Source: Oceanobacillus indicireducens (lineage in GTDB: Bacteria; Bacillota; Bacilli; Bacillales; Amphibacillaceae). From it: a stretch of DNA of 40,180 nt. The translations under genes and the position numbers were made by a program. Below the pieces are notes generated by a model. That model was not told where the DNA came from. It worked only from the letters and a program-made list of their open reading frames with translations, and did not search any database. Shown piece by piece: positions 1 to 7,897 of this stretch. How positions within the stretch are numbered: the first letter of the stretch is position 1; every line of letters starts with the position of its first letter. The stretch spans positions 1-40,180 of the forward strand of contig NZ_BMOS01000030.1 of NCBI RefSeq assembly GCF_014647195.1, read 5' to 3'.

Positions 1-915
1 ATCAAATAAACTGAAAACTGCAATTCCTGACATACTACCAGCAATCATGGCAATTATTGTCAACGGTTTCATCAGTACATATGGGAAATATAATTCATGG
101 ATACCACCAAAGAAGTGAATTATGATAGCACCAGGTGCTGTTCGTTTTGCAGCCTTTTTCCCAAAAACACTAAATGCTAATAGTAAGCCTAGTCCTGCTC
201 CGGGGTTTGATGCTACTGTGAAATAAACCGACTTTCCTGCTTCAAGTGTTTCTTGCATTCCTAAAGGATAATAGATACCTTGGTCGATGACATTATTTAA
301 AAATAACACTTTTGCCGGTTCATTAATAAGAGAGAGTAATGGTAGGAAACCAGTCGCTACCAAAGCCTCTATAGCCACAATTACAAAGTTATTTGCTGAT
401 TCAATAACTGGTCCGATGAAATAAAAGGAAATAACCATTAATATAAACCCTATAATACCTATAGAGAAATTATTTACAATCATTTCAAATCCAGCCGGTA
501 TTTTATTCTCAATTAGCTTATCAAATTTCTTAATGATCCAGCCACCTAAAGGACCAATAATCATAGCCCCAAGGAACATCGGGATATCAGAACCAACAAT
601 TAGCCCGATTGCCCCTATAGCACCCATTACTGCACCTCTTTGGCCGGCAACCATTCTTCCTCCTGTAATGGCTAACATTAGAGGAAGTAAATATTTAATC
701 GCTGGGTCTACGATGGAACCGAGGTCTTCGTTAGGAAACCAACCCGACGGTATGAACAAAGCGGTTAGTAAACCCCAAGCTATAAATGCACCAATGTTAG
801 GAAGTACCATATTAGTTAGAAAGCCACCAACGGCTTGAATTTTCGCTCGCAAGGATGGCTTATTTGTGCCATTTGAATTATTTGTTTCATATGCTAAATT
901 CTCTGTACCTGCCAT
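1..915 (-). CDS. mtlA: PTS mannitol-type EIICB component, 3' end outside window
   Basis: Membrane permease of a phosphotransferase system that imports and phosphorylates a hexitol. The frame is open from an ATG at 915, preceded by a GGGGGA ribosome site, to the window edge: 305 codons without a stop. The translation is hydrophobic and carries MtlA hallmarks: an N-terminal QAVGGFLTNMVLPNIGAFIA stretch, a GRMVAGQRGAVMGAIG loop, and later SNPGAGLGLLLA and HFFGGIHELYFPYV. This is the whole IIC domain apart from its last helix; the IIB part would lie beyond position 1. It is the last visible gene of the leftward sugar operon, 57 bp after the EIIA gene. The family is firmly mannitol-like, but hexitol specificity cannot be read from sequence and the neighbours argue that it may not be mannitol. 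Confidence 0.9.
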   Translation of the reverse strand, partial: MAGTENLAYETNNSNGTNKPSLRAKIQAVGGFLTNMVLPNIGAFIAWGLLTALFIPSGWFPNEDLGSIVDPAIKYLLPLMLAITGGRMVAGQRGAVMGAIGAIGLIVGSDIPMFLGAMIIGPLGGWIIKKFDKLIENKIPAGFEMIVNNFSIGIIGFILMVISFYFIGPVIESANNFVIVAIEALVATGFLPLLSLINEPAKVLFLNNVIDQGIYYPLGMQETLEAGKSVYFTVASNPGAGLGLLLAFSVFGKKAAKRTAPGAIIIHFFGGIHELYFPYVLMKPLTIIAMIAGSMSGIAVFSLFD

Positions 916-972
916 TTCTATTTCCCCCTATCCTATATGAATACAAATGATTATTCGTTACATCCAAAGAAC

Positions 973-1422
973 CTATTCTTCTTCCTCTGCCCGCTGAATA
1001 AGTTCGATAATTTCCTTTTCCGTTTCGGCTTTTTTAAAGCTTTCCATGATATCATCATCGATCAACATAGAAGAAAGATTGGAAATCAACTCCAAATGGC
1101 CATCACTATCTTCTGCTGCTAATACAATAAGAATTGAAACTTCTTTATCCTCCGGGTAGAGAACTGGATTTTTTAATTTCAGCATGGAGACTCCGGTTTT
1201 TTTGACTGCTCCATTATTTTGTGCGTGAGGCATAGCAATTCCAGGTACGATCACGATATAAGGACCATTTTTATGAATATTGTCAATCATATCCTGGATA
1301 TATTGAGATGTAATCAAACCTTCATTCAGTAATGGTTGGGCAGCTTTTTTAATCGATTCCTCCCAAGAGGAAACACTATCAATAAAATTAATATTACCTT
1401 TTAAATAATTACTTAATTGCAT
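973..1422 (-). CDS. PTS EIIA component, ascorbate/fructose-like type
   Basis: Soluble 149-residue phosphocarrier that passes phosphate from HPr to the EIIB domain. The phosphorylated histidine should be the one in PGIAMPHAQ (about residue 66). The text around it (PYIVIVPGIAMPHAQNNGAV, then LKLKNPVLYPEDKEV and ILIVLAAEDSDGHLE) resembles the UlaC/SgaA ascorbate-type EIIA more than the MtlF EIIA of Bacillus, which reads NFIAIPHG at that point. Pairing such an EIIA with an MtlA-type EIICB is unusual. It sits between the dehydrogenase gene (22-bp gap) and the permease gene and should be co-transcribed. The start is an ATG with a GGAAGATG-like ribosome site at a rather long spacing. Confidence 0.85.
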   Translation of the reverse strand: MQLSNYLKGNINFIDSVSSWEESIKKAAQPLLNEGLITSQYIQDMIDNIHKNGPYIVIVPGIAMPHAQNNGAVKKTGVSMLKLKNPVLYPEDKEVSILIVLAAEDSDGHLELISNLSSMLIDDDIMESFKKAETEKEIIELIQRAEEEE

Positions 1423-1444
1423 GATTTTTCATCTTCCTTTCTGT

Positions 1445-2611
1445 TTAAAACGGAAAAGTACCCTTCTTTAATTGTTTATAATTCTCTTTGATTTTATTCT
1501 GAAGATGCTCATTCTCAAGTTCTGTATAATGGGTAATCGCTTTATCAATCCCATACTCACCTATGAATTTTTGCAAAGTCACAGATTCCTCATCTACGGG
1601 ATTATAAAATAAAAATCCAGCAGCAATAGCAACAGTTAAGCGTTCAACAGGAAGTCCCATATCAAATAATTCCCTTGTTGGTTTGACTAGCCGTTCATCA
1701 AAACTTAATTTACGTATTGGATTTCTGCCAACTCGAAACACTTGATCATTTATGTTTTTATTTTTAAATCGCTTTAAAGTCTTTTCAATAAAGTTAGTCA
1801 TTTCCTCACGATTAAAACCAAATTTTGTTTCAACATATTGTGATGCTTCATCCATTGTTTTACTAATGAAATTCGTCCTATCTTTATTTTCCAACGTTTT
1901 TTGAATCGTGGAGTTTCCAGAAAAAAATCCGATATAGGCTGTTGCCGCATGTCCCATATTTACGATATATAATTTTCTTTCTATATATGGTTGTAAATCT
2001 TCCACGTAAATAGCATTTTTTATAGATGGTGCTTTAAAATTAATCATTTCAGATTTGTTAATGATCCACTCGTAATAAGGTTCCACTAGCGTTCTTTCAC
2101 CTTCATCCCTTGTTTCGGATAAAGATAGACGGTCAATAGCTGAGTTTGGAAAACCTGCAATCCCATTGATTTCTTGTATCTCGCTCTCAGAAAGCTGTTT
2201 TTCCATTTCCTGTTTTAAAGTAGTGCTCGCATTAATTGCGTTTTCATTTGCGATCACATCAATTTTACGCTTGTTTTCCTTTACTCTCTTTAACAACCCC
2301 TTTGACAGAATCGGGGCAATCCCGGATAAATTATTTATGCCAACAGATGTGGTGATGATATCTGCATTGACGATTGCCTCTATCACTTTTTCTTTTTGGG
2401 TATTGCTATTTAAAGCAGATACAGGGGATATGGTTTCAACGGTATGGTTATCATCCAATAACTCAACATGATACTTGTGTTTTGCATTAAATTGGTCTAC
2501 TGCTTGTTGATTCACATCCACGAAACAAACATGATATCCAGTCTTATTTAATAATTTGCCAATTAATCCTTTACCAATATTACCAGCGCCAAAATGCAAT
2601 GCTTGCATCAT
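1445..2611 (-). CDS. mtlD: Mannitol-1-phosphate 5-dehydrogenase family protein
   Basis: NAD-dependent polyol-phosphate dehydrogenase of 388 residues, the usual MtlD length. The N-terminus carries the Rossmann motif in ALHFGAGNIGKGLIGKLL (residues 4-21). The catalytic K-x4-N-x2-H signature of the long-chain polyol dehydrogenases is present as KLYIVNMGHAATAY (near residue 213), and VANENAIN is also typical. The family reaction is hexitol 1-phosphate + NAD+ to ketohexose 6-phosphate. It starts at an ATGATG pair behind GGAG. It lies between the hexuloisomerase and EIIA genes. Because two further ketose-phosphate isomerases are encoded upstream, the true substrate may be a hexitol phosphate other than mannitol 1-phosphate; that part is inference. 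Confidence 0.88.
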   Translation of the reverse strand: MMQALHFGAGNIGKGLIGKLLNKTGYHVCFVDVNQQAVDQFNAKHKYHVELLDDNHTVETISPVSALNSNTQKEKVIEAIVNADIITTSVGINNLSGIAPILSKGLLKRVKENKRKIDVIANENAINASTTLKQEMEKQLSESEIQEINGIAGFPNSAIDRLSLSETRDEGERTLVEPYYEWIINKSEMINFKAPSIKNAIYVEDLQPYIERKLYIVNMGHAATAYIGFFSGNSTIQKTLENKDRTNFISKTMDEASQYVETKFGFNREEMTNFIEKTLKRFKNKNINDQVFRVGRNPIRKLSFDERLVKPTRELFDMGLPVERLTVAIAAGFLFYNPVDEESVTLQKFIGEYGIDKAITHYTELENEHLQNKIKENYKQLKKGTFPF

Positions 2612-2647
2612 ATGAACTCCTTTACTTCTCTATTTAAATACCTCAAA

Positions 2648-3208
2648 CTACTCTAGGTTTGCGTGATATCTCCATAGTTCTTTCATATCAATATTTTGTT
2701 CTTTAATCATCATTAATGCCAGTGTGTCACCAAGTAATAGTAAGCTTTGTTCAAATAAGCTAGTCATAGGCTGTACAGATTGGATTTCACCGGGTAAACT
2801 CAGCTTAGAACTTACAGGAATTTTAATAAAACAATCCGTATATTCTTTCATGGAGCTCTCAGGGTTTGTGCCAATATGAGCTACTCTTGCATGGTTGTCC
2901 TTTGCTTTCTTGGCAATAATTAATGGGAAGGCAGTTTCGCCACTTCCTGAACCCACGATTAGTAAATCTTTTTCCGTAATTGCCGGTTCTGTTATTTGTC
3001 CGACGAAATACGTTTTTACGCCAAGATGTGCAAGCCTTTTTGCTATCGCCTTCAAGGATAATAAAACTCGGCCAACGCCCACAAAGAAAACCTTCTCCGC
3101 CTTATTTATTTCATCTAATAACGAATAGATCTCTTCTTCATTTACCTGATTTAAAGTCGTTGTTAATTCGTCGGTAATTTTTTTTGCAGTTTCAACATAA
3201 CTGATCAA
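2648..3208 (-). CDS. 6-phospho-3-hexuloisomerase-like SIS-domain protein
   Basis: A 186-residue SIS-domain sugar-phosphate isomerase similar to HxlB/PHI, which converts D-arabino-3-hexulose 6-phosphate to fructose 6-phosphate. Visible features are KVFFVGVGRVLLSLKAIAKRLAHLG (phosphosugar-binding loop), LLIVGSGSGET and the C-terminal LFEQSLLLLGDTLALMMI helix; the length matches PHI. I place the start at the TTG at 3208: it follows AAGGAGG by 9 bases and comes one base after the stop of the epimerase gene. A longer frame to 3241 would overlap that gene and precede the ribosome site. No hexulose-phosphate synthase is adjacent, so formaldehyde fixation by the RuMP route is not supported here; a role in rare-hexitol breakdown is my inference. 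Confidence 0.8.
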   Translation of the reverse strand: MISYVETAKKITDELTTTLNQVNEEEIYSLLDEINKAEKVFFVGVGRVLLSLKAIAKRLAHLGVKTYFVGQITEPAITEKDLLIVGSGSGETAFPLIIAKKAKDNHARVAHIGTNPESSMKEYTDCFIKIPVSSKLSLPGEIQSVQPMTSLFEQSLLLLGDTLALMMIKEQNIDMKELWRYHANLE

Positions 3209-3209
3209 T

Positions 3210-3914
3210 CTACTTAGCCTCCTTATAAAACCCTTTTTCAATCGCTTGTTCTACTAGTTTTTTATTCTCTGCCAAACTTTGGCCCTTTAAAAACAAGCTA
3301 GTACTTCCTGCTACTAAAATATCGGCACCAGCTCTCACTAAATCCGGAATAGCTTCTAACGAAACCCTACCATCTACTTCTATCTTTGTACTTAATTGCT
3401 TTGTTTGAATTAATTCGTATAAATCTTTTACTTTTTGTATTGAATAAGCCACTTTTTGCTCGTTTTTATCAGTTGCAAATCCTGGATTTATAAGCATAAG
3501 CAAAATAGTATCGCACTCTGGCAAGACGTAATCCAGTACTGTCAATGAAGTTGATGGATTCAAAGCCACCCCTGCTTTTATACCATTTTTCTTTATTAAT
3601 TGAATGTTACGATCAATATGTGTGCTCGATTCGATATGAAATGTTATTTGCTGAACACCTACCTTGACCATTTCTTCTATAAAAAACTCATTGTTATGAG
3701 ACATGATATGAACATCAAAATTCATGTCAGTTATTTTCCTTAGTTGCTTAATCGTGTCAATTCCCAATGGCATACTTGGACTAAAATGCCCATCAATTAA
3801 ATCTAAATGAAGTGTATCAATCCCTTCCTTTTCAATTTCTCTTATGCTTCTTTCCAAATTGCACAAGTCTGCACTCATAAGGGAAGGTGCTATTGTAATA
3901 TTCTTTTTATGCAC
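3210..3914 (-). CDS. Ribulose-/allulose-phosphate 3-epimerase family protein
   Basis: TIM-barrel epimerase of 234 residues. The family residues are visible: APSLMSADLCNLE at the N-terminus, the metal-binding pair in LHLDLIDGHFSPSMPLG, a second histidine in DVHIM, MLINPGFA, and the aspartate in KIEVDGRVSLE; the phosphate site is VAGSTSLF. It could be a ribulose-5-phosphate 3-epimerase, but divergence from housekeeping Rpe and its position in a hexitol operon favour a ketohexose-6-phosphate 3-epimerase such as AlsE (allulose 6-phosphate to fructose 6-phosphate). It is the first gene of the operon and starts with GTG at 3914, behind AAGGAGG at a 7-base spacing. The start codon lies inside the last of four repeated putative operators. 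Confidence 0.82.
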   Translation of the reverse strand: MHKKNITIAPSLMSADLCNLERSIREIEKEGIDTLHLDLIDGHFSPSMPLGIDTIKQLRKITDMNFDVHIMSHNNEFFIEEMVKVGVQQITFHIESSTHIDRNIQLIKKNGIKAGVALNPSTSLTVLDYVLPECDTILLMLINPGFATDKNEQKVAYSIQKVKDLYELIQTKQLSTKIEVDGRVSLEAIPDLVRAGADILVAGSTSLFLKGQSLAENKKLVEQAIEKGFYKEAK

Positions 3915-4026
3915 GTTTGTGCCTCCTTTTAATGCGCTTATGCGCTTGTTATATTCATTTTAGTGCGCTTTCATGCATTTGTAAAGAGATTTTACTCACT
4001 TTTTTTATTTTTATGCATGTTTATGC
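3910..4026. promoter_or_regulatory. Four 13-bp operator-like repeats, TGC(A/G)-N6-TGC
   Basis: Four related 13-mers lie between the divergent genes: TGCACGTTTGTGC (3910-3922), TGCGCTTATGCGC (3933-3945), TGCGCTTTCATGC (3964-3976) and TGCATGTTTATGC (4014-4026). Each is a pair of TGC triplets 10 bases apart, one helical turn, as expected for tandem half-sites. They overlap the epimerase start codon, the region just after the -10 box, the promoter spacer, and the zone upstream of the regulator's likely -10 (TAAAAT, 4046-4051). The natural ligand would be the adjacent DeoR-family protein, which could then repress both operon and itself; this is inferred from position. Confidence 0.65.
3957..3985 (-). 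promoter_or_regulatory. Sigma-A promoter of the hexitol operon
   Basis: On the minus strand TTTACA (3980-3985) is separated by exactly 17 bases from TAAAAT (3957-3962). A copy of the 13-bp repeat fills the spacer, and TGAAAGCG inside it looks like the left half of a CcpA cre site (3960-3973); the right half fits poorly. Transcription would start near 3950. Confidence 0.7.
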
Positions 4027-4079
4027 CTTTTTTTGTCTTTTATGTTAAAATAGAAGAGATTAGTTAGGAGGTTATAACA

Positions 4080-4829
4080 ATGTTGAAAAGAGAACGACAA
4101 GATAAAATTTTACAAATCATAAATGAAGAACACAAAATAATTGCCAGTGATTTAAGTAAACGATTATCAGTTTCAGAAGATACTATACGCAGAGATTTGA
4201 AGGAATTGGACAATCAAGGACTTATTAAAAGAGTCCACAGTGGTGCTCTAAGAATAGGTCCCCCTATTGTTGACTTTTCAGTTAGAGAAAATATATCCAA
4301 TGAAATTAAAATGAAGTTGGGAAAAAAAGTAATTGATATTTTAAAAGAGGATATGGTAATACTAATCGATGGAGGAACAACAAATTTACATTTAGTCTAT
4401 CAAATTCCATTAGATTTTAAGGCTAGTATCATAACAAATAGCCCGCCCATAGCTATGGCTCTAAGGAATCACAAAAATATAGAGGTAATTATGATTGGTG
4501 GAACATTATTTAAACAGTCGATGGTGAACTTGGGAATAGACACTGTCGAGTATTTAAATAATATGAGATGTGATTTATATATAATGGGTATTTATAACAT
4601 CAACCCACAAATTGGAATAAGTGTACCCACTTTATCCGAAGCATCGGTAAAACGAAAAATGGTTTCTATTTCAAGTGAAATCCTAGGTATGGTAACCTCG
4701 GATAAATTAGATACAGCTTCAAACCATATCGTTTGCCCCGTGAACAAATTAACGTATCTCATAACAGAAAATATTAATTCAGATCTAAAATCAACCTATA
4801 ACAGCGAGGAAGTTATCTTTATCGATTGA
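4080..4829 (+). CDS. DeoR-family transcriptional regulator
   Basis: A 249-residue repressor with the family layout: an N-terminal winged helix-turn-helix (RQDKILQIINEEHKI, then LSVSEDTIRRDLKELDNQGLIKRVHSGA, residues 4-55) and a C-terminal sugar-phosphate-sensing domain (DGGTTNLHLVYQ, ITNSPPIAMAL, MIGGTLF). It begins at an ATG preceded by TTAGGAGG at 8 bases. It diverges from the hexitol operon and is the evident candidate to bind the four repeats in the shared 165-bp gap. Typical mannitol operons use the PRD-containing MtlR; a DeoR-type regulator is closer to ascorbate, fructose or galactitol systems, another sign that this is not an ordinary mtl operon. The effector is probably a phosphorylated intermediate of the pathway. 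Confidence 0.88.
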   Translation: MLKRERQDKILQIINEEHKIIASDLSKRLSVSEDTIRRDLKELDNQGLIKRVHSGALRIGPPIVDFSVRENISNEIKMKLGKKVIDILKEDMVILIDGGTTNLHLVYQIPLDFKASIITNSPPIAMALRNHKNIEVIMIGGTLFKQSMVNLGIDTVEYLNNMRCDLYIMGIYNINPQIGISVPTLSEASVKRKMVSISSEILGMVTSDKLDTASNHIVCPVNKLTYLITENINSDLKSTYNSEEVIFID

Positions 4830-6159: not shown

Positions 6160-6813
6160 TCAGATATTGCTATCAGAGTTAGATGTCATGACTTCAGTAG
6201 CCCAATTGAAGATGTATTAGTAGAAAGAATTACAGATAAAATTATCACACAAGCTACAAATAAAAGATTCATTATTTTGCTAGACTTCTATGATTCTGCA
6301 ATTAATGAAGAAAGAATAACTACTTCACTTAAAAACTTTTCATTATTAAATCCAGACGAAATTGTTTTAATCCTTACCTCCTGTCCAGAAAATGCGGATA
6401 CTGCACCAGCCAACTCCTTTTCCCTTATCCAAAGTAGAGATGATATAAAAATGTACTTTAAATTAAAAAAGAAATATCCTGATTTAAAATTTGGAGATTA
6501 CACAGTGAGATTAAGACCTGCTCCAGATAGTGCGAGGATAAATTACTACAATACTTACCTTAAGATTTTTTATTCTTCTGAGGATGATTACTACATCGGA
6601 AAATCCACATTAATAGAAAGAAATGGTATTGAGACTTTTAAAAATGTCTGCCAAGAAATAGTGGATAGCGATGTATATAAAAAGCCTGATTTTTCTCTGG
6701 GTGATAAAGCCATATATGATTGTGCCAAAGGAATACTTGAGATTAATAATCACTCTAAGCCAATAGAATATGGAATTAACCACCACATTGAATTAATGAT
6801 TAAACAATTATAA
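6160..6813 (+). pseudogene. 5'-truncated T4 beta-protein / sce7725-like gene
   Basis: The frame is open from the junction at 6160 (SDIAIRVRCHDFSSPIEDV) through FIILLDFYDSA to a stop at 6813, about 217 codons. A TTG at 6277 could give a 178-residue product but has no ribosome site and lies inside the conserved region. The text IAIRVR, KFGDYTVRLRPAPDS and LKIFYSSEDDYYIGKS resembles the C-terminal two thirds of beta-family proteins (T4 beta protein, sce7725), usually about 350 residues and beginning near a YYPxLRGKQ motif absent here. I therefore call it a remnant missing roughly the first 130-150 residues. It converges on the sce7726-like gene, and the two stop codons overlap by six bases. Family assignment is from memory of motifs. 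Confidence 0.6.
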
Positions 6814-7377
6814 ATCCGCTCTCCAATTTTCCCTGGTTTTTAACGATCTATATACATGCTGTTGAATTGTATAAACATCGGCTTCTCTTGAAAAAATTTC
6901 TAGAAGCTGATGTTTCTTTAATTTCTTCATTTTCTTAGGGTAGCCCATTACATCAATAAAATCTTCCAGATCTTCCTTCCATAACAAACTAAGTAGTGTA
7001 TCTTTATCTTGGGTAGACTGCTTCCTTCCTTTTCTCTTCTCGATTAGTCTTGTAGCATCCCAACTAATTATCTTTATTCCCCACCATTTGGGAACCATTT
7101 CAAGAATTTGTTGATAATATTTCCTTGATGATACAATTGTCATACGTTGAAATAGTTTATTATAATATGATATTTGTCTTGGTAACCTGTCGAGTGTGTC
7201 ATAATCACTTTTAATTTCGTAGCCATGAATAATTCCGTTTACCACAGCGACATCCACTCTGGATTTCCCATTATTTATACCTAATTCATTTATTATCCTA
7301 GTATTTGGATCATCACGATACTGAGATTGAAGTTCTTTATCTAATAATTTCCTTACCCCTTTATCATTCAAAAGCAT
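6808..7377 (-). CDS. sce7726-like PD-(D/E)XK nuclease-fold protein
   Basis: A 189-residue protein starting at ATG 7377, preceded by AGAGGTGA at a good distance; an upstream frame to 7455 lacks a ribosome site. Residues about 40-60 read SRVDVAVVNGIIHGYEIKSD, which contains the D...E-x-K arrangement of PD-(D/E)XK nucleases, followed by RLPRQISYYNKLFQRMTIV and PKWWGIKIISW, both typical of sce7726-family proteins. The C-terminus is rich in K and R. The family often occurs beside sce7725-like proteins, and here the neighbour is a truncated gene of that kind. Function is not established; an antiphage or toxin role is speculation from the fold and from the accessory neighbourhood. The gene itself shows no damage. 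Confidence 0.72.
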   Translation of the reverse strand: MLLNDKGVRKLLDKELQSQYRDDPNTRIINELGINNGKSRVDVAVVNGIIHGYEIKSDYDTLDRLPRQISYYNKLFQRMTIVSSRKYYQQILEMVPKWWGIKIISWDATRLIEKRKGRKQSTQDKDTLLSLLWKEDLEDFIDVMGYPKKMKKLKKHQLLEIFSREADVYTIQQHVYRSLKTRENWRADL

Positions 7378-7897
7378 TTTATTCACCTCTAATATATTAT
7401 TATAAAGGTTATAATAAATATCAAGTATATATACTCTTTGAAAGAATTGTGACACGCATTCTGACTAAGCCCCAGCACTTCCAGACTATAATATGCATTT
7501 TGTAAATCGAGGCTTTATTTCTCCACTGTGGCTCTATTTCAATATATCCTTCCTAATTACCCAGGTGAAGATAAGAGATGCTGGTGGATGTTCATAATTT
7601 ATCATCGACAAAGCTAAGTATATTAATTATCCTGAATTATTCATAGAAAAATGCAACTAGCTCTTAACCCTATAACCGCCAATCAACTGTGCAGTTATAA
7701 AAAGCATAATAAAATAAGAACCCATTTCTAATAAGGTCAAATTGCGAAAAATAACCAATAGACAGGGTTCTTAAGTTGTACCGTAAATAACACTTAATCT
7801 CAATCGCAAAGTAAAATTGTCCGACGACGGAGGAGAATTATCCCCAGATGCTGATGGAATTTTTCCGGAATTTGATAGAAAAAATCAGTTTTTCATA
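7378..7897. other. Intergenic stretch with short inverted repeat and possible element scar
   Basis: No supported gene. AAGAACCC (7716-7723) and GGGTTCTT (7765-7772) form an inverted repeat. The 14-mer TGAATTATTCATAG (7633-7646) recurs in the opposite orientation at 19010-19023 beside another scar, hinting at a shared insertion-element end. A leftward 45-codon frame between about 7810 and 7670 has no start or recognisable domain. Confidence 0.3.

Follow-up and report, generated by a model that had tools for sequence, protein, structure and literature searches.

A conserved operon joining a mannitol-type transporter and dehydrogenase to an Rpe-family epimerase and a PHI-like isomerase in Oceanobacillus indicireducens: a candidate pentitol pathway

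Overview

The contig NZ_BMOS01000030.1 of Oceanobacillus indicireducens, analysed here as a whole (the window, 40,180 nucleotides; contig C30 of assembly G000), begins with an operon, truncated at the first base of the contig, in which a mannitol-type transporter of the phosphotransferase system (PTS) and an MtlD-like dehydrogenase are combined with an Rpe/AlsE-family 3-epimerase, a PHI-like isomerase and a DeoR-family regulator. The current model, of moderate confidence, proposes that phosphorylation and oxidation of a pentitol would yield xylulose 5-phosphate, which the epimerase would channel onward; the PHI-like protein may serve as a pentose-phosphate isomerase. Among the pentitols D-arabitol is preferred as substrate, being stereochemically nearest to mannitol and matching one mannitol end. 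The relatives of the operon point to the pentose phosphate pathway, and not to a rare six-carbon sugar route, as the likely destination of its carbon, a reading favoured because transketolase and transaldolase genes are linked to some of them, and the nearest analogue is, on our comparison, a pentitol PTS operon with pentose-phosphate enzymes.

In the proposed mechanism, EIIA and EIICB would import and phosphorylate the pentitol, the MtlD-like enzyme would oxidise the pentitol phosphate to xylulose 5-phosphate, and the Rpe-family epimerase would convert this product into ribulose 5-phosphate. The PHI-like SIS protein would then turn ribulose 5-phosphate into a pentose 5-phosphate, taking the place that RpiB has in the pentitol-type loci of Listeria, and the transketolase and transaldolase encoded next to or within the operon in some relatives would lead to fructose 6-phosphate and glyceraldehyde 3-phosphate, with DeoR as the predicted local regulator. 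We infer the substrate, every reaction and the regulation, and the isomerase step is the boldest part of this mechanism.

Gene layout and conservation

The open reading frames, assigned to families by NCBIfam models with Pfam in agreement, bear out the gene set and order described in a first-pass annotation of this DNA. The MtlA-type EIICB named there held only in part, as the EIIC portion is present (305 aa) and the missing half with EIIB falls outside the window, a search of the rest of the host assembly giving no match. From DeoR outward the order is epimerase, PHI-like, MtlD-like, EIIA and EIIC, and the PHI-like and epimerase genes share a 32 bp overlap. The PTS and polyol-phosphate dehydrogenase genes occupy one gene run, for which a common transcript is predicted from the layout only. 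The features are as follows.

915..1, minus strand: EIIC of an MtlA-type PTS, N-terminal 305 aa, open at the window edge, EIIB missing (open reading frame, NCBIfam, Pfam)
1422..973, minus strand: EIIA of the PTS_EIIA_2 family (open reading frame, NCBIfam, Pfam)
2611..1445, minus strand: MtlD-like polyol-phosphate dehydrogenase, NEN for CEN, in a clade apart from mannitol MtlD (open reading frame, NCBIfam, tree, alignment)
3241..2648, minus strand: PHI (HxlB)-like SIS isomerase, GRV for GRS (open reading frame, NCBIfam, alignment)
3914..3210, minus strand: Rpe/AlsE-family 3-epimerase, β8 loop longer by one residue, β6 loop by three, VDGR (open reading frame, NCBIfam, alignment)
4014..4021, minus strand: AACATGCA, a weak candidate for a regulator site, between the divergent epimerase and DeoR genes (occurrence count)
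4080..4829, plus strand: divergent DeoR-family regulator (open reading frame, NCBIfam, Pfam)

Genomes with the same gene set were sought through the PHI-like protein and the epimerase. Counting the host itself each time, a close counterpart of the PHI-like protein occurs in 6 of 98 relatives (identity at least 65%), in 28 of 397 genomes from the order (E<=1e-50) and in 5 of 398 from the class (E<=1e-40). An epimerase search of 398 phylum genomes gave ten above threshold: the host, G449, G977 (two copies) and seven at 41-46% identity. Two of these seven, G1099 and G1102, have the homologue amid housekeeping genes and thus an ordinary Rpe, after which the other five were left out. As the genome draws overlapped, 35 distinct operon genomes resulted, and together with a Virgibacillus contig (L022) and an Enterococcus raffinosus megaplasmid record (L117, one of five such records, the other four being left out) they make up the 37 loci compared here. 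All six genes are present in every locus and keep the order of the window in 36; the sole exception is G977, with DeoR at the opposite end. Since six genes recur in 37 of 37 loci, 36 of them in the same order, the set is genuine and conserved beyond chance.

This gene set had already been published for Streptococcus uberis, where the operon SUB0285-SUB0289 has five genes in common with it (rpe, hxlB, mtlD and two for a mannitol-type PTS) and is annotated as mannitol-specific; the regulator is without mention in the available part of that genome paper, and the likeness is judged from annotation (PMC2657157). That paper, as far as available, describes the genes by annotation, and a substrate test of the set was not found in the portions of the literature at hand. 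Nor do the available parts of the literature on E. raffinosus, S. uberis, L. casei, sourdough and L. pentosus name a phenotype for the operon.

Two further observations concern its occurrence. Unannotated, unverified records labelled 'Listeria phage' match the operon, L161 (OR848250.1) over 54% of the 4829 bases at 69% identity, and these matches are most likely host DNA within the assemblies. In G015, a second set stands beside the operon (L031:386-5000), with an MtlA-like EIIC (50%), EIIA, DeoR (48%), a distant MtlD relative (25%) and, as read by eye, an open reading frame resembling a HAD phosphatase.

Linkage to transketolase and transaldolase

The presence of a transketolase gene can be assessed in 35 of the 37 loci, as the window and L022 end too early. 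In 11 of these 35, a transketolase, in one case a remnant, lies beside or inside the operon. It follows the EIIC match after about 65-550 bp in eight loci (L028 holding just its start, at the contig end), adjoins DeoR upstream in L086 and lies inside the operon in G977, in the run RPE-PHI-TAL-TKT-RPE-MtlD-EIIA-EIIC. The sister locus L102 keeps a degraded remnant upstream of DeoR, at the place of the L086 transketolase (G680:C11 near 292885). Transaldolase-family genes occur in four loci, adjoining transketolase in L073, L086 and L119; the fourth, in L070, is at the far end of a 12.5 kb contig, on the strand of the operon and behind a second transketolase piece. That contig (G237:C37, 12545 bases) carries transketolase parts at both ends, a pattern that could reflect a circular molecule or a break at a repeat.

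On the tree, the presence of transketolase requires a minimum of five changes of state, and the variety of its positions speaks for recruitment on more than one occasion. In eight genomes the operon transketolase is full length, and each of them has a further full one, so that the operon gene is an extra copy. Given that a genome has one to three full transketolase genes, an immediate neighbour of this kind would be expected by chance about once in a thousand cases. The two full transketolase genes of the host show no sign of being operon parts: one is on C25 beside other genes, and the other belongs to a run on C3 (~147-157 kb; L129:1-9351, L127) composed of DeoR, dehydrogenase, MFS transporter, DhaK, DhaL, RpiB, GlpX, TalC and transketolase, of which GlpX, TalC and transketolase are confirmed by model and the remaining genes were read by eye from the sequence. 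This run possibly encodes another short polyol (erythritol-like) pathway.

Analogous pentitol systems

The genes lmo2659-2668 of Listeria monocytogenes, which we take to be a D-arabitol/D-xylitol operon with lmo0498-0508 as its sister, offer the closest comparison. The first of these PTS loci reportedly serves D-arabitol and D-xylitol, in work attributed to Kentache et al. 2016. It comprises a PTS, dehydrogenases, rpiB, rpe, tkt and a second rpe, and the second locus comprises rpiB, rpe, tal, SIS, PTS, rpe and dehydrogenase, its SIS protein coming closest to KpsF/GutQ, with 150 bits against a cut-off of 204. The Listeria loci thus resemble the operon in joining a PTS and a polyol-phosphate dehydrogenase to epimerases, an isomerase and a transketolase or transaldolase. 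They differ in their Gat-type PTS, galactitol-phosphate-type or zinc dehydrogenases, BglG-type regulator and RpiB, whereas the operon has an MtlA-type PTS, an MtlD-type dehydrogenase, DeoR and a PHI-like SIS protein. For the PTS uptake and oxidation of arabitol, the Kentache work is cited in the available part of PMC6685057.

In Bacillus methanolicus, according to the accessible part of PMC7511216, arabitol imported by a PTS is oxidised to xylulose 5-phosphate, which passes through epimerase, isomerase, transaldolase and the non-oxidative pathway. Its atl operon is therefore like the present proposal in PTS pentitol uptake within Bacillota, the xylulose 5-phosphate intermediate and the non-oxidative pentose phosphate pathway (PMC6685057, PMC7511216, both as far as available). 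It differs in its galactitol-type PTS and MDR dehydrogenases, and the eight induced genes tabled in the part available include no epimerase or PHI.

Epimerase and the hexitol alternative

The operon epimerase stands between Rpe and AlsE. It passes the broad Rpe subfamily model NF004076 (198 bits, cut-off 165), as does E. coli AlsE (209.6), and falls just under the cut-off of the Rpe equivalog TIGR01163 (209.4 against 212.6). On the latter model E. coli AlsE scores 212.4, two Listeria proteins with the AlsE loop 199.7 and 209.1, plain Rpe proteins 246 to 314 and the canonical Rpe of the host 314. On the AlsE model NF007266 the operon protein has 158 bits, below the cut-off of 271, against 428 for E. 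coli AlsE. Its overall identity is higher with Rpe (35-42%) than with AlsE (28%), and the residues to which the metal-binding and acid-base roles of Rpe are assigned are retained in the alignment. Compared with the canonical Rpe of the host and that of E. coli, its β8 loop is longer by one residue, as in E. coli AlsE, its β6 loop is longer by three, and VDGR replaces VDGG; all three features are found in 37 of 37 loci, L102 having a variant spelling of the β8 loop. The protein shares family and β8 loop length with E. coli AlsE and differs from it in the extra β6 insertion and VDGR. The extra β8 residue of AlsE is said (Chan et al. 2008) to fit hexulose 6-phosphate, its removal shifting the preference to ribulose 5-phosphate.

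It has been argued, in the first-pass annotation, that the operon serves a rare hexitol such as D-altritol or allitol, which the MtlD-like enzyme would oxidise to allulose 6-phosphate or a 3-ketohexose phosphate, to be converted by the epimerase and the PHI-like protein into fructose 6-phosphate. D-altritol would fit best stereochemically, as its oxidation at C2 should give allulose 6-phosphate and that at C3 the normal substrate of PHI. The AlsE-type β8 loop, the Rpe cut-off just missed as by E. coli AlsE, the PHI model that is passed and the fixed motif changes in EIIC and MtlD described below are all in line with this route. One part of the claim is supported, namely that both an epimerase and an isomerase are probably required by the product. 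The destination of the carbon is less well explained. An endpoint at fructose 6-phosphate gives no role to the transketolase in 11 of 35 loci and the transaldolase in four, one of the two isomerases would be superfluous, and the cut-off of the AlsE model is missed.

Relatives elsewhere add to this. Both Listeria loci with pentitol-type gene content hold an epimerase with the AlsE loop (alignment, by eye), and, as the operon epimerase is also nearer to Rpe, the β8 loop by itself becomes a weaker argument for a hexitol. A relative of the operon epimerase in Paraburkholderia graminis, 48-51% identical to it and likewise carrying the β6 insert and DGR, has as neighbours an ABC transporter, a gene annotated as alcohol dehydrogenase and a xylulokinase (493 against a cut-off of 380), a setting that a hexitol route ending at fructose 6-phosphate leaves unexplained; hxlB lies there ~6.6 kb away, on the other strand, and retains GRS. 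The E. coli als (allose) genes employ RpiB as isomerase and an ABC transporter. Altogether, a rare hexitol is the strongest competitor of the pentitol, and an unlikely one.

Transporter and dehydrogenase compared with mannitol systems

The MtlD-like protein passes the mannitol-1-phosphate dehydrogenase equivalog NF002652 (394 bits, cut-off 356). The EIIC, cut at 305 aa, reaches 395.8 bits on TIGR00851 against a cut-off of 468.4. The EIIA, which had been taken for an ascorbate-type protein, scores higher on the mannitol IIA model PRK09854, its best (107.6 bits, below the cut-off of 192), than on the ascorbate model (86.2 bits, below 187). The host has a separate mtl locus (G000:C11), in which MtlA and MtlD pass their models. 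This mannitol operon of mtlA, EIIA and mtlD has an EIIC and a dehydrogenase homologous to those studied here (55% and 40% identical), which differ from it in a separate MtlD clade, changed motifs, the DeoR regulator and the extra epimerase and isomerase.

The operon MtlD proteins form one clade, apart from three mannitol enzymes in the tree, and carry NEN in 37 of 37 rows, where 29 of 29 non-operon MtlD loci, that of the host included, have CEN. The operon EIIC has IDQG in all 37 loci, against INHG in the host's own MtlA, a motif whose N and H are mannitol-binding residues. Moreover, 32 of the 35 operon genomes also carry another MtlD-family gene. Because of this second gene and the fixed changes NH to DQ in EIIC and CEN to NEN in MtlD, the operon is probably not a mannitol operon, which upholds the earlier claim that the ordinary mannitol route does not account for it.

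A second mannitol operon, with fructose 6-phosphate as product and the two isomerases as accessories, would agree with the S. uberis annotation (in the available part of PMC2657157), with the dehydrogenase model that is passed and with the three of 35 genomes (G047, G241, G117) that have no other MtlD-family gene at E<=1e-40. It would leave the epimerase, isomerase, transketolase and transaldolase without use, and a DeoR protein as regulator does not suit it either, so that with the duplicated MtlD and the fixed motifs this explanation is improbable.

A seven-carbon polyol such as volemitol, oxidised to sedoheptulose 7-phosphate and passed directly to transketolase and transaldolase, would employ both enzymes and the enlarged epimerase site, and one end of volemitol should have the stereochemistry of mannitol. 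The roles of the epimerase and the PHI-like protein would be indirect, and a heptitol seems very unlikely.

The PHI-like isomerase

The PHI-like protein passes the hexuloisomerase model TIGR03127 (184 bits, cut-off 160). In the PHI alignment eight positions separate 31 operon rows from 9 ordinary rows, among them the change from GRS to GRV, which is found in all 37 operon loci; the serine of GRS touches phosphate in SIS structures. A role beside HPS in the ribulose monophosphate (formaldehyde) pathway, of whose cycle PHI, Rpe, transketolase and transaldolase are all members, has next to no probability: no HPS exceeds the cut-off in the host genome, whose assembly has gaps (the sole match, 27 bits against 200, is at the canonical rpe gene), and an HPS-like match is absent from the 37 operon loci, against 7 of 7 loci around ordinary PHI copies (36-45% identical; the query source L033 and six matches), in six of which it adjoins PHI. 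This role was rejected for the host on these grounds.

The alternative function proposed here, that of a pentose-5-phosphate isomerase of a new type that would have arisen from a hexuloisomerase and have no kinship with RpiA or RpiB, is tentative, with the balance leaning against it. It is geometrically allowed because C2/C3 of fructose 6-phosphate and C1/C2 of a pentose 5-phosphate are equally far from the phosphate, and other SIS proteins isomerise arabinose 5-phosphate.

Points against the pentitol model

Several observations weigh against a pentitol. By the reported AlsE work, the AlsE-type β8 loop of the 37 loci favours hexulose 6-phosphates, and the Rpe score just under the cut-off, a level also seen for AlsE of E. 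coli and for both Listeria proteins with the AlsE loop, supports the same view. The AlsE-loop epimerase of Listeria stands beside a plain Rpe and may have another role. The host genome already has a canonical Rpe and an RpiB-like open reading frame (the latter named by eye), and in 24 of the 35 assessable loci, the annotated E. raffinosus locus included, the stretch read contains no transketolase. The PHI-like protein, finally, is one that passes a hexuloisomerase model, and we know of no precedent for pentose isomerase activity in the PHI family.

Candidate operator and neighbouring genes

The word AACATGCA was considered as a shared operator. Away from the start codon it occurs in 22 of 37 upstream stretches (by eye), against a mean of 0.52 loci in single-base shuffles; other copies in relatives are merely the epimerase start codon, it is absent from the 10 transketolase upstream regions, and the lone copy in the window is at chance level. 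It was therefore dropped as evidence. Further along the window, positions 6277-7455 hold a Beta_protein open reading frame (PF14350), and the opposite strand bears one without Pfam match, which resembles a sce7726-type partner.

Significance

Where annotation was seen, the operon is labelled as mannitol use plus Rpe and ribulose monophosphate genes, labels that a known substrate would correct. The operon is conserved across many Bacillota. Knowledge of its substrate would reveal how a transporter and a dehydrogenase for mannitol came to handle another polyol, and would also test whether a pentose-phosphate isomerase can evolve from a SIS hexuloisomerase. If the PHI-like protein is such an isomerase, the operon, with its epimerase and the linked transketolase and transaldolase, would be a self-contained non-oxidative pentose phosphate pathway, serving a pentitol imported by a mannitol-type transporter.

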